A stretch of 64,000 nucleotides of DNA, taken from contig NZ_JADOBQ010000003.1 of the NCBI RefSeq assembly GCF_015644665.1, positions 62,001 to 126,000 on the forward strand. The letters run 5' to 3'. The notes beneath the pieces were generated by a model that saw only the letters and a program-made list of their open reading frames with translations, was not told the origin of the DNA and did not search any database. The position numbers and the translations under genes are program-made. The DNA comes from Roseobacter sp. MH60115 (GTDB taxonomy: Bacteria > Pseudomonadota > Alphaproteobacteria > Rhodobacterales > Rhodobacteraceae). The stretch's first letter is position 1. Each line of letters starts with the position of its first letter. Below are positions 1 to 62,232 of the stretch, one piece after another.

Positions 1-159
1 ATAGGGCGCGTCACTCTGGTTCACCGGCGCGCCGCCGATGACGCGGCTCACCGTTCGCCCGGTGCTGTCCTTGCAGGTAAAGGAAGACTGCGCCAGGGCG
101 CCTCCTGTCATGGCAAGGCTGCAGAACGCCGCTGCCAGATGTCCGAACACCTTATTCAT
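1..159 (-). CDS. Secreted trypsin-like (S1) serine protease, N-terminal part only
   Basis: Only the first 53 codons are in the window; the gene continues beyond base 1. Residues 1-24 form a signal peptide ending Ala-Leu-Ala-Gln, so the product is exported. Residues 39-43 read Arg-Val-Ile-Gly-Gly, which resembles the activation site of trypsin-family proteases (Arg-Ile-Val-Gly-Gly), where cleavage frees the new N terminus that forms the active enzyme. The catalytic His, Asp and Ser lie outside the window, so the family call rests on this motif and its position. The ATG at 159 has an AAGGAG ribosome site 9 bases upstream. The start overlaps the stop of the upstream gene by 8 bases, which implies translational coupling to it and to the serpin operon. 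Confidence 0.65.
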   Translation of the reverse strand, partial: MNKVFGHLAAAFCSLAMTGGALAQSSFTCKDSTGRTVSRVIGGAPVNQSDAPY

Positions 160-784
160 CTGTCAAATCTCCTTCGTTCGCGGCAACGACCCGGTACCGC
201 AAAACAGTGGCGCTGTAGGGTGCCGACGCACTTCTGGAACTGGTTGATCCGTGGTCGGGAATGACCGGGATATCTTCAGGCGCAAACTGGCCCCCGAGGT
301 CCGGGCTCCAGTGCAGATAGACCTCCGCAGGCGCCAGGGGCTCTTCCACCTGGAAACCATAACCCTGTTGGGCGTCACCAAGGCAAAGCTCTTGCCCGGC
401 CTCCATCTTGCCCCCTTTTACCTTGCGCTCTTCAGGTGTGAGATCGTTGGGATAGATCCGCACCGGGCGCTGGCCATCCAGGGTGCGGGACCAGACCGAC
501 AGATAGCCGCTGCGCTTAGCCTTGGCACAGACCGCAACGAGGTCTCCCAAACTCAAATCCGGATTTGGGAAATCGACCTTGGCCCAGCTGTCGCTCTGGC
601 GGTCATAAAGCTTGAGGTATGCCTGCAGGCTATCGCCCGCGGATCGCGACACCGGCACCTCGTTCGTGCGTTCCTGTGCGTGGGCGATCTGGGTGCCGAG
701 CGTCATCGCAGCACCGACAATGGCAATGATGAGCAGAGCGAACGCCTTGGCGCTGCAAGGGAGGGATAGAGGTTTCCGGATCAC
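152..784 (-). CDS. Exported or membrane-anchored DUF4384-like protein
   Basis: This 210-residue protein has an N-terminal hydrophobic segment (residues 14-36) followed by Ala-His-Ala-Gln, so it is either cleaved and secreted or anchored. Residues 78-115 (Leu-Ser-Leu-Gly-Asp, then Gly-Tyr-Leu-Ser-Val-Trp, then Asp-Gly and Ile-Tyr-Pro-Asn) match the core pattern of DUF4384, whose function is not known. I place the start at a GTG at 784 because AAGGAG lies 7 bases before it; the longer frame from the ATG at 811 lacks a ribosome site. Two Cys (86 and 134) could form a disulfide. It lies between the serpin and the protease genes, and its stop overlaps the protease start. The DUF4384 match is weaker than for the gene ending at 1999. 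Confidence 0.6.
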   Translation of the reverse strand: MIRKPLSLPCSAKAFALLIIAIVGAAMTLGTQIAHAQERTNEVPVSRSAGDSLQAYLKLYDRQSDSWAKVDFPNPDLSLGDLVAVCAKAKRSGYLSVWSRTLDGQRPVRIYPNDLTPEERKVKGGKMEAGQELCLGDAQQGYGFQVEEPLAPAEVYLHWSPDLGGQFAPEDIPVIPDHGSTSSRSASAPYSATVLRYRVVAANEGDLTDE

Positions 785-807
785 GGGATATCTCCTTGCA
801 AACTGGG

Positions 808-1920
808 TCATGAGGGGTCGCGGATGACGCCAGCGATCAACGCCGTGTCGATGCCCGGCATCATCAGGAAAAACTCAAAGGGGCGATCAAACTGCACCAG
901 AGGCGCTTCGTTGACCTCCACCGAGCGGACACCAATTGCGGCCGTGGCAGCAGCGGCTTCCACCCCTGCTTCGTCCGCCTTGAACACCACAGATTGGACA
1001 AGTGGCCCTGGAACTGCGCCCCCATCAACGATGGTTTGCATGCCCTCTGCCAACGCCCGCTCCATGCCAAGCTCTTCCATCACCGCATTCAGATCGCGGC
1101 TGCTTTCCAGATCCAGAAGCGGCATCGCGACGCGCACGAAGCTTGCGGCCTCCGGGGCCAGCAGAACGGGTGTCGGCGCCTGGTCCGTTTCGCCCTCTGT
1201 CGATTCATCCTGCGGCGATATCTCTGCGGGGGTTTCTGTGGCTTCCTCATCGCGCGCAGGTAGCCTCATCAGCACATACCCACCGTCCTGAAAGCCCATG
1301 GCGACCACCAGACCGTCATCCGTTTTCCAGGATGGGAATGTCTTGCTACTGGTCATGAAGCGCACATCGACGGTGCTGCGATCCGGACGCGCAAATGGTT
1401 TTTCAGCGGTTTGAGCCGGTGGAAACGGCATCGACCAGTTGTCTTTGAAGTGAAGGGCGCTGGTGACCACCACAGTGGCACTGTCCAGCGGATCACTCAG
1501 CAGTTTCGGAATAAGTCCCTTGGTCGCTTCTTCCGCCCAGGCATTGATACGGTCGATGCCATCCTTGGCAAGGCTGAGCGTCTCCTGATCTGCCTGCCAG
1601 ACATCTGTCAGGTTCGATGCCGCGGCCTCCGATGGGCGTGTCGCCGTATCATACCAGACCGCATAGCTGAGATTGACGGTCGGCGGCATATCGGCCGGCG
1701 GCTGTCCCGGTTCCAGACCCGCGCGCGCAAGACCCATGGTCAACAACACGCTCAGCGGTGAAACCAAGGGATTGCCAACACCATCGTCAACGGCAGCGAG
1801 AATATCCATGGTTTCCGCATCAGGCAGGCCAAGCGCCATTACCGGTTCGTTGGCGAAGGTCGGGACAGCAACGCTCATGCAAGCGCCGAGGCATATGGCA
1901 CGGGTGAGGCAGGTTTTCAT
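808..1920 (-). CDS. Serpin-family protease inhibitor, secreted, compact form
   Basis: Serpins are suicide inhibitors that trap serine or cysteine proteases by inserting a cleaved loop into a beta sheet. The 370-residue product has a signal peptide (residues 1-23, ending Phe-Ala). Serpin landmarks follow in order: Asn-Pro-Leu-Val-Ser-Pro-Leu-Ser at 50-57, Ile-Asn-Ala-Trp at 126-129 with Glu-Ala-Thr-Lys-Gly just after, Ala-Leu-His-Phe-Lys-Asp-Asn-Trp at 155-162, a hinge Glu-Ala-Gly-Val-Glu-Ala-Ala-Ala-Ala-Thr at 317-326, and Phe-Asp-Arg-Pro-Phe at 344-348 near the end. The Ala-rich hinge with Thr at its end is what inhibitory serpins show. Odd points: the stretch between helix B and helix F is about 30 residues shorter than in alpha-1-antitrypsin, and residues 224-250 are an acidic, Pro-rich insert. 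The ATG at 1920 is preceded by AAGGAAAG. Confidence 0.9.
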   Translation of the reverse strand: MKTCLTRAICLGACMSVAVPTFANEPVMALGLPDAETMDILAAVDDGVGNPLVSPLSVLLTMGLARAGLEPGQPPADMPPTVNLSYAVWYDTATRPSEAAASNLTDVWQADQETLSLAKDGIDRINAWAEEATKGLIPKLLSDPLDSATVVVTSALHFKDNWSMPFPPAQTAEKPFARPDRSTVDVRFMTSSKTFPSWKTDDGLVVAMGFQDGGYVLMRLPARDEEATETPAEISPQDESTEGETDQAPTPVLLAPEAASFVRVAMPLLDLESSRDLNAVMEELGMERALAEGMQTIVDGGAVPGPLVQSVVFKADEAGVEAAAATAAIGVRSVEVNEAPLVQFDRPFEFFLMMPGIDTALIAGVIRDPS

Positions 1921-1998
1921 GCTTCTTTCCTTTTTGTGTACGACCGAGGTCGGCACGTGAGCCGCCCTTCGTCGGTTCGCGACGCATCGGTCGCGACA

Positions 1999-2727
1999 TC
2001 AGTCAAGTTCAGGTATCCGCGCGGCCAGTCTGATCTCTCTGCGTGAGATGTCCGGTGACAGATACGATTCCTCAGCGGCAACGGTGCTGAGCAACACGGT
2101 AAACTCTCCCCAAAGGCCCACATCGGAGACGTCCCCGCCCGCGCCATCGGACCCATCGCCGGGCTCTGCGCCTTCGCCGACAGCTTCCGGGCTCTCGTCA
2201 CTCCCGGACGCAGGCCCCGTATTCACCACGCCCAAGGCGCGGGACAGGCGACTTCCGCTGCCCGGAGGCGCAACCTTGAAGGGACCGACAGGGGCCGAGA
2301 CAGAAACGTCATCAATGGTCAGCGGACGTTCGGTTGCGATAATCTTGATCAGCTCAGTGCCCGCAGGGCCTGCCGCCACAATCCGTGCACCAGGTCCCGG
2401 CAGCAAAAGCTCGGTGTCGGCGGGGACGTAGTTGTCCTCGTTGAACTTGTTGGGAAAGAGCTGGGCGACGCGACCCGCTTCATCGACATTTACCACCAGA
2501 AGATAGGCCGCCTTATTGAGGCGTACACTCAGGTCGATCTGTTCGCCAATGCTGTAGACGCCATCGGCATTGCTCAGCGTGGCGGTGATTGTATAGGCTT
2601 GGCTGGGGGGTTTGGTGCTGGCAACGGTCGCCTGCTCTACACTGAGGATCCGACTGCTTTGCGCGTCAACCGCCCCGGTAACACTCGCATAGCTCAAGAC
2701 GGCCCACAGCATGATATCCTTTATCAT
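1999..2727 (-). CDS. Secreted DUF4384 domain protein
   Basis: The 242-residue product begins with a signal peptide (residues 1-23, ending Val-Asp-Ala-Gln). Residues 57-135 are a clear DUF4384 domain: Tyr-Ser-Ile-Gly-Glu-Gln-Ile, then Ala-Ala-Tyr-Leu-Leu-Val-Val-Asn-Val-Asp, then Leu-Phe-Pro-Asn, and a closing Gly-Thr-Glu-Leu-Ile-Lys segment. Residues 155-205 are rich in Gly, Ser, Asp and Glu and look disordered. DUF4384 is a beta-rich domain often seen in or near caspase-like and other surface proteins; its role is unknown. The ATG at 2727 is preceded by AAAGGA, so I chose it over longer frames. It is the first gene of the minus-strand operon, 78 bases ahead of the serpin. Confidence 0.8.
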   Translation of the reverse strand: MIKDIMLWAVLSYASVTGAVDAQSSRILSVEQATVASTKPPSQAYTITATLSNADGVYSIGEQIDLSVRLNKAAYLLVVNVDEAGRVAQLFPNKFNEDNYVPADTELLLPGPGARIVAAGPAGTELIKIIATERPLTIDDVSVSAPVGPFKVAPPGSGSRLSRALGVVNTGPASGSDESPEAVGEGAEPGDGSDGAGGDVSDVGLWGEFTVLLSTVAAEESYLSPDISRREIRLAARIPELD

Positions 2728-61234: not shown

Positions 61235-62232
61235 TTGGACGCGACAGGGATGCAATCGACCCCTTCGGCCTTGAAGGCGGAACAGAACCGACGCGCATCT
61301 GCCAGATCGACAAACCCCATGGCCCGCAGACGATAGAAGGTGCGCCCGCCCGATTGCGCCTGCTGCACCACGCGGGATTTGTCCTGCAGATAGCTGCCAA
61401 AGCGGCTTTCCAAACGCGCCCATTCGCTGCGCGCCACATCGGCGCTGTCAAAGGCACCCAACTGCGCCAGACGCGTGCCTGCCGGGATGGCGGCGGCGTC
61501 AATCTCGGCCGTCGGGGTCTCTGCGACAAAGGCGGCAGTCTGCAATGTCGCGGGCGCGCCCGGTCGCAGGCGCGGGCGTTTCACAATCTGTGCCGGGCTG
61601 GTTTCAGGGGGGGCTTCCTGAGCGTCCGCTGCGGTCGCTTCATCTGCTGCAAGGGTGTCCGCTGCCGTATCGGCAGCCTCTGCCAGCGGGGTCACGCCAG
61701 AGGTCAGCTCCGCCACAACTGCATCAATCGCACCGCTTTGCAGGTTTTCCGCCAGCGTGCTCTCCACCCGTGCAGGGATACGTTTGGCACCGCCCACAAC
61801 CTCCGCCGCCGGGGCGAGCGGTTCGGGTTGCGCCACCGGCGCCACGTCCGTGGCAGAAATCGGCTGATCTTCCTGCGCCAGATCGGTGTCCCGCGGGGCC
61901 AGTACCACCTGATCCACCGGACCTGCGGCAACGCCCTCTGCGGCGACGGCGTTGACGGCCAAGCCCTGATGCCGGGCCACCTGCCCACCGGGATCGTCGG
62001 GGCGCACCCGCATCTCCCCTTCGGCGGCGCGCACCACCGGGATGCCGGAGACATCGCGCACCATCAGCTTGTAGCCCCAGACGCCAATCCCCGCGATCAA
62101 CGCCAGAGAGACCACGGCGCCAGCCACATTTGTCATCATTGTCAGGGCGTTGGGCGACAGTTCTTCATCACCCGGCGCCTCGCGCTCGCGCCCATACGCG
62201 CCCATACCATGGGAAAATTCAACGTCCGCCAT
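61231..62232 (-). CDS. SPOR-domain membrane protein
   Basis: The 333-residue protein has a cytoplasmic start, one membrane helix (about 33-56), a long low-complexity periplasmic region, and a C-terminal SPOR domain (about 258-333: Ala-Gln-Leu-Gly-Ala-Phe-Asp-Ser-Ala, Gly-Gly-Arg-Thr-Phe-Tyr-Arg-Leu-Arg). SPOR domains bind peptidoglycan stripped of stem peptides at division sites, so a cell-division or wall-remodelling role is likely. It lies between argS and nagZ, the conserved Rhodobacterales order. Confidence 0.9.
   Translation of the reverse strand: MADVEFSHGMGAYGREREAPGDEELSPNALTMMTNVAGAVVSLALIAGIGVWGYKLMVRDVSGIPVVRAAEGEMRVRPDDPGGQVARHQGLAVNAVAAEGVAAGPVDQVVLAPRDTDLAQEDQPISATDVAPVAQPEPLAPAAEVVGGAKRIPARVESTLAENLQSGAIDAVVAELTSGVTPLAEAADTAADTLAADEATAADAQEAPPETSPAQIVKRPRLRPGAPATLQTAAFVAETPTAEIDAAAIPAGTRLAQLGAFDSADVARSEWARLESRFGSYLQDKSRVVQQAQSGGRTFYRLRAMGFVDLADARRFCSAFKAEGVDCIPVASK

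Follow-up and report, generated by a model that had tools for sequence, protein, structure and literature searches.

A serpin gene linked to trypsin and caspase genes in Alphaproteobacteria, a candidate serpin-restrained protease system

The role of serpins in many prokaryotes has been described as enigmatic, and prokaryotes lack the regulatory networks that serpins serve in higher eukaryotes (PMC8233489, section 12). The targets of many prokaryotic serpins are still elusive (PMC10090351, section 16). The serpin considered here is encoded in a stretch of 64,000 nucleotides from Roseobacter sp. MH60115 (NZ_JADOBQ010000003.1, positions 62,001 to 126,000; G000:C13:62001-126000), called the window. 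Its gene stands with those of an S1 trypsin, caspases (C14) and OmpA and DUF4384 proteins, an assemblage termed the module. The module serpins share the family and the inhibitory-type hinge with miropin, the siropins, the Bifidobacterium serpin, thermopin and chloropin (PMC8233489, PMC10090351). The described targets of characterized bacterial serpins are foreign or unknown, whereas a candidate target of the module serpin is encoded next door.

A protease and its inhibitor also share one operon in the staphopain/staphostatin systems. These differ from the present locus by another inhibitor fold, a cysteine protease and the lack of a serpin. Pseudo-orthocaspases of Alphaproteobacteria that join trypsin, a p20 domain with a QC dyad and DUF4384 have already been published (PMC6426788). 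They have the same S1-caspase-DUF4384 order as the fusion proteins described below, and the QC dyad is common to the three Rhizobium fusions read here. The loci presented here differ in that a serpin gene follows, that the fused caspase of the families f80 and f82 keeps His-Cys, and that the window family has separate genes. The text of that paper has 0 occurrences of 'serpin'. OmpA has been counted in 14 metacaspase operons, in a paper whose text is likewise free of the word (PMC3501461). Among the matches listed from the open-access literature, with subscription papers mostly outside this coverage, none described a serpin together with these proteases. The conflict systems EACC1, CATRA and EAD likewise contain bacterial caspase and trypsin domains, as effectors or activators, and are tied to NTPase switches and EAD adaptors in the accessible part of their description (PMC8195603). 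In contrast, none of these switches and adaptors was found among the 10 proteins scanned at the present locus, and its proteins look exported as judged by eye.

The window serpin lies in a run of 11 minus-strand genes, coding for a DUF4384 protein, the serpin, a DUF4384-like protein, the trypsin, an OmpA protein, two caspases (F and G) and four uncharacterized proteins (H to K), with intergenic gaps of -13 to +78 bases. The two caspase proteins bear out the earlier note on this DNA, which had anticipated a caspase-like gene further left. It had also called serpins rare in Alphaproteobacteria, and a serpin was present in only 3 of 394 genomes of the window's family (G000, G233, G367) and 9 of 385 genomes of a class sample. 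All three serpin-bearing genomes of the family have an S1 trypsin, DUF4384, OmpA and a caspase at the same locus. In G233, one strand carries OmpA, DUF4384-like protein, trypsin, serpin, a weak caspase-like protein, OmpA and two caspases. The order in G367 is DUF4384, serpin, OmpA, DUF4384-like protein and trypsin on one strand, and a caspase-Sel1 gene adjoins the trypsin on the opposite strand. The window's DUF4384-like gene has homologues next to the serpin and trypsin genes of G233 and G367 (33% and 41% identity), and a homologue of its DUF4384 gene adjoins the serpin in G367.

Trypsin, p20 and DUF4384 are separate genes in the window and form one protein in Rhizobium johnstonii, G588, G678 and G778. 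The f82 genomes G588, G474, G680 and G778 share the order OmpA, caspase-like protein, trypsin-caspase-DUF4384 fusion and serpin. Serpin and S1-caspase fusion occur in the same 4 of 9 f82 genomes and neither in the other 5 (Fisher p 0.008, genome relatedness ignored). The f82 serpin frame can open 4 bases inside the fusion gene, with a second possible start a few codons on. Only 1 of 14 f80 genomes has a serpin; this genome, G678, encodes DUF4384, OmpA, the fusion and the serpin, and a caspase gene about 3.5 kb upstream on the other strand. A scan of the class sample, scoring at most two candidates per genome, found the full fusion in 4 of 385 genomes, with an adjacent serpin in all four, and trypsin-only or caspase-only matches in four further genomes.

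Altogether, 13 serpin places in 12 alphaproteobacterial genomes were compared, 8 of them with the module (G000, G233, G367, G474, G588, G678, G680, G778). No module genes were detected by local profiles near the other five (G574, G483, G413 and two in G641). These profiles were built from one to seven sequences each and match their own members by construction; the G367 caspase is such a member and was confirmed independently by Pfam (2e-24). A contig scan listed at least 19 serpin loci, of which one was that of G367 and the other 18, with lengths of 3,955 to 20,906 bases, were non-alphaproteobacterial controls. Relatives of trypsin, caspase, DUF4384 or OmpA were found by local profiles near none of the 18. 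The association of serpin and protease genes is real. The earlier note had proposed a module of a serpin with two DUF4384 proteins and a protease, to be checked by recurrence of the neighbourhood. The association does recur in several lineages, and its core consists of serpin, S1 protease, caspase and OmpA/DUF4384 rather than of a serpin with two DUF4384 proteins. A synteny comparison with the sister species G266 for an empty site gave no result, the best match of the flank gene being 45% identical among 106 matches. G574, which has a stand-alone serpin with Arg in its loop, encodes on another contig two tandem trypsins with a DUF4384 match, above the cut-off in the first and below it in the second, and no caspase domain (L092:8012-11037).

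On plasmids of rhizobia (R. johnstonii 3841 pRL11, R. etli CFN 42 p42e, R. indicum pPR12A202) a DUF4384 protein, a caspase, a trypsin-like protease, a serpin and a Ser/Thr kinase are encoded in this order. The R. johnstonii proteins were resolved by Pfam into DUF4384-TPR-OmpA and trypsin-caspase-DUF4384, and the genes for fusion and serpin are 13 bases apart. A 3.7 kb query spanning both matched 90 plasmid records, at least 80% of it in one place in 87 of them. The fusion gene alone matched 90 plasmid records (88 over at least 80% of its length) and the serpin gene alone 103 (89). The serpin genes of R. johnstonii and R. etli differ with a ratio of nonsynonymous to synonymous substitution rates (dN/dS) of 0.141, and the four neighbouring genes with ratios of 0.125-0.168. 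Three plasmid serpin records from other bacteria, taken from 15 matches under 60% identity and the non-Rhizobium matches, had no trypsin or caspase annotated nearby. On two sphingomonad plasmids typed as conjugative (L111, L112), the serpin gene lies near the relaxase gene traA and DUF6118/DUF1971 genes, a case of a serpin as plasmid cargo. Beside the fusion gene of Neorhizobium galegae pNgVX (L114:7001-8024), an unannotated stretch matches the serpin in two separate parts, which might reflect decay of the gene or an error in sequencing. A gene for a retron Ec67-family reverse transcriptase directly follows the kinase gene downstream of the serpin on a Rhizobium indicum plasmid (L110:11547-13286).

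The trypsin gene is truncated by the left edge of the window and complete in the genome (G000:C13:61287-62159, 290 aa, Pfam trypsin E 2.4e-47). The earlier note had read a trypsin-type activation site from the truncated part and asked for the catalytic residues. The complete protein has the full triad His57, Asp102 and Ser195 (LTAAHC, SDIAVL, GDSGG), and the activation site TVSR-VIGG (Arg-Val-Ile-Gly-Gly) has a basic residue followed by a hydrophobic one and Gly-Gly, the Arg codon being 43-45. An alignment showed the triad and an activation site after Arg/Lys in all eight module S1 proteases. Asp189, indicative of an Arg-type pocket, is present in seven of these eight and in all three Rhizobium fusions.

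The window serpin was assigned to its family by the Pfam profile, of which positions 82-370 only are covered, and matches conserpin of the PDB (E 1.8e-16). Its hinge GVEAAAAT has small residues at P12-P9 and Thr at P8, where Thr/Ser is expected. A hinge of small residues ending in Thr was found in all 11 module serpins read. The first alignment comprised seven module serpins, all with a loop Arg at position 14 from the hinge Gly (15 in G678); Arg at position 14 also occurs in G778 and the three Rhizobium serpins, making 11 of 11. No Arg and two Lys were counted at this place in the 18 non-alphaproteobacterial serpins. The spacing to the hinge suggests, by comparison with human C1 inhibitor, that the Arg is P1. 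The best tree of 36 serpin rows places the 10 included module serpins in one group, which is weakly supported (57/87) and has long branches. A single origin would be compatible with this tree and is not shown by it. As judged by eye, the module serpins start with signal-peptide-like stretches.

A serpin-restrained extracytoplasmic S1 trypsin/caspase system is proposed as a fairly probable explanation of these loci. The S1 protease would be an exported zymogen that is cleaved after a basic residue, either by itself or by a co-encoded Arg-specific orthocaspase. DUF4384 and OmpA/TPR proteins may hold or sense the protease at the envelope. The serpin, presenting Arg at P1, would capture the Arg-specific protease after its activation in an irreversible complex, and this trapping could set a threshold or end the reaction; the order of activation and the biological output are likewise inferred. 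A wider interpretation is put forward tentatively, with confidence a little short of even. According to it, Alphaproteobacteria may possess an extracytoplasmic zymogen cascade of S1 protease and orthocaspases that a dedicated serpin holds in check. Such a cascade would be a bacterial counterpart of the serpin-controlled clotting and prophenoloxidase cascades, and the native target of its serpin could be named from the operon itself.

Several observations weigh against the proposed system. The window's own S1 protease has Thr189 instead of the Asp189 of Arg/Lys specificity; the match of serpin and protease is therefore weakest in the window's genome, which leaves room for the caspases as target of the window serpin. 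The earlier note had suggested a protease with its own inhibitor. The recurring linkage and the intact triad agree with this suggestion, while the Thr189 trypsin fits it poorly and inhibition of the co-encoded protease is inferred, not measured. The window serpin is short: its Pfam match begins at profile position 82 and the sequence following the NPLVSPLS motif is reduced. Its P14 is Val. A loop Arg also occurs in three of five stand-alone alphaproteobacterial serpins, so that it is not specific to the module. In the comparison of R. johnstonii with R. indicum, dN/dS of the serpin (0.167) exceeds that of its neighbours (0.044-0.086); these ratios indicate constraint on the Rhizobium serpin, a constraint that in the closer pair is weaker than that on the neighbouring genes. 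The fused caspase is a pseudo-enzyme with a QC (Gln-Cys) dyad in all three Rhizobium loci read. Pairs of S1 and DUF4384-like genes with Asn189 occur without a serpin in G017 and G388 (L066:9814-11498, L068:9737-11330), and a G008 locus has OmpA and two caspases without serpin or S1. The lineages number about four. The Rhizobium plasmid records are closely related to one another and represent a single lineage rather than independent events.

The real target of the serpin might be the co-encoded orthocaspase (C14), an expected Arg/Lys cutter, and not the S1 protease. A caspase or caspase-like gene stands in or beside every module locus read, and the window S1 lacks Asp189. The His-Cys dyad of an orthocaspase p20 domain is present in the window caspases F (SGHG/DSCFSG) and G (SGHG/DACHSG) and kept in the fusions of G678 and f82, and a separate upstream caspase of the three Rhizobium loci has it intact. 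AtSERPIN1 has been cited as a metacaspase inhibitor, according to a reference title in PMC8233489. The intact His-Cys of the separate Rhizobium caspases makes this explanation slightly more probable, and the proposed system slightly less so, than without them. It is nevertheless considered unlikely: Gln replaces His in the fused caspase of 3/3 Rhizobium loci, the f82 upstream caspase-like proteins are without the His motif and only 1 of 4 reaches the Pfam C14 cut-off, and the S1 protease retains triad and Asp189 in the Rhizobium and f82 lineages. It also seems doubtful that the serpin guards the cell against foreign proteases, whether from a host, a predator or a competitor, its expression together with a secreted protease block being incidental. 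Such a role would suit the signal-peptide-like starts of the module serpins, and serpins of gut and oral bacteria have been described as inhibitors of host proteases (PMC8233489, section 12). Against it stands the co-occurrence of serpin and S1-caspase fusion, and the 18 non-alphaproteobacterial serpins are all without such neighbours.

Very improbable is a non-inhibitory serpin, or one carried along by chance in an envelope gene block. The short and divergent sequence of the window serpin could be read in this way, as could the faster evolution of the serpin relative to its neighbours in one Rhizobium pair and the Val residues at P14 in the window and at P12 in the f82 serpins. Val is not the commonest hinge residue at either position. 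On the other side stand the hinge common to all module serpins read and a serpin dN/dS of 0.14-0.17 in Rhizobium, and the linkage is retained despite altered gene order and fusion state, a recurrence on which chance neighbours were rejected. An intracellular conflict system of the EACC1/CATRA type was rejected as well. With scores of 33.3 and 50.1 bits, the matches to the NCBIfam EACC1 caspase model stay far below its cut-off of 140, PADLOC returned for the locus a generic caspase and weak LmuA, ZorB and AbiEi matches only, and the N termini are signal-peptide-like by eye. No EAD or STAND/AP-ATPase partner was detected by Pfam or NCBIfam in 10 proteins scanned, the products of genes H to K being without assignment.

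The four window genes lie where the earlier note had placed them, and Pfam confirmed their families (Table 1). They probably open a co-transcribed block. Genes C and D share 8 bases, as had been noted before, and a purine-rich stretch resembling a ribosome-binding site was seen by eye upstream of each of the genes A to D. Gene C starts with GTG preceded by AAGGAG, an alternative start being ATG at 811; its PF14326 score is 29.4 bits against a cut-off of 27. Further left, the DUF4384 match is above the cut-off in caspase protein G and below it in F. For genes H, I, J and K, which lie left of the window at L002:5457-9317, no Pfam family reached its cut-off; by eye, gene J is presumably Lon-like. 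That H-I-J belongs to the serpin module as a constant component is not supported. The trio recurs in G008, G017 and, weakly, G305 at loci that have no serpin, and in G367 some 32 kb separate H-I from the serpin. H-I-J seems to be a second unit that was added to the run in the window genome.

Table 1. Features of the module within the window, with positions counted from its first letter.
Feature	Position	Strand	Basis
Gene A, DUF4384 protein, signal-peptide-like N terminus, 242 aa	1999..2727	-	Pfam PF14326, E 1.8e-22
Gene B, serpin, signal-peptide-like N terminus, 370 aa	808..1920	-	Pfam PF00079, E 1.5e-38
Serpin reactive-centre loop, hinge Gly to P1' (GVEAAAATAAIGVRS)	922..966	-	P1 from hinge spacing
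Predicted serpin P1 Arg codon; P1' Ser codon	925-927; 922-924	-	Hinge spacing
Gene C, DUF4384-like protein, 210 aa	152..784	-	Pfam PF14326, E 8.8e-7
Gene D, S1 trypsin zymogen, N-terminal part, signal-peptide-like stretch and activation site	1..159	-	

Gene linkage, the fusion of its neighbours and an Arg bait fitting an Arg-type pocket tie the serpin to named proteases in named rhizobia, which makes the question of its native target directly testable. If the proposed system is true, a function would be suggested for the published family of trypsin-caspase-DUF4384 proteins. In animals, serpins keep the blood-clotting proteases in check; the gene block suggests that some bacteria may likewise use a serpin to control their own protease system.

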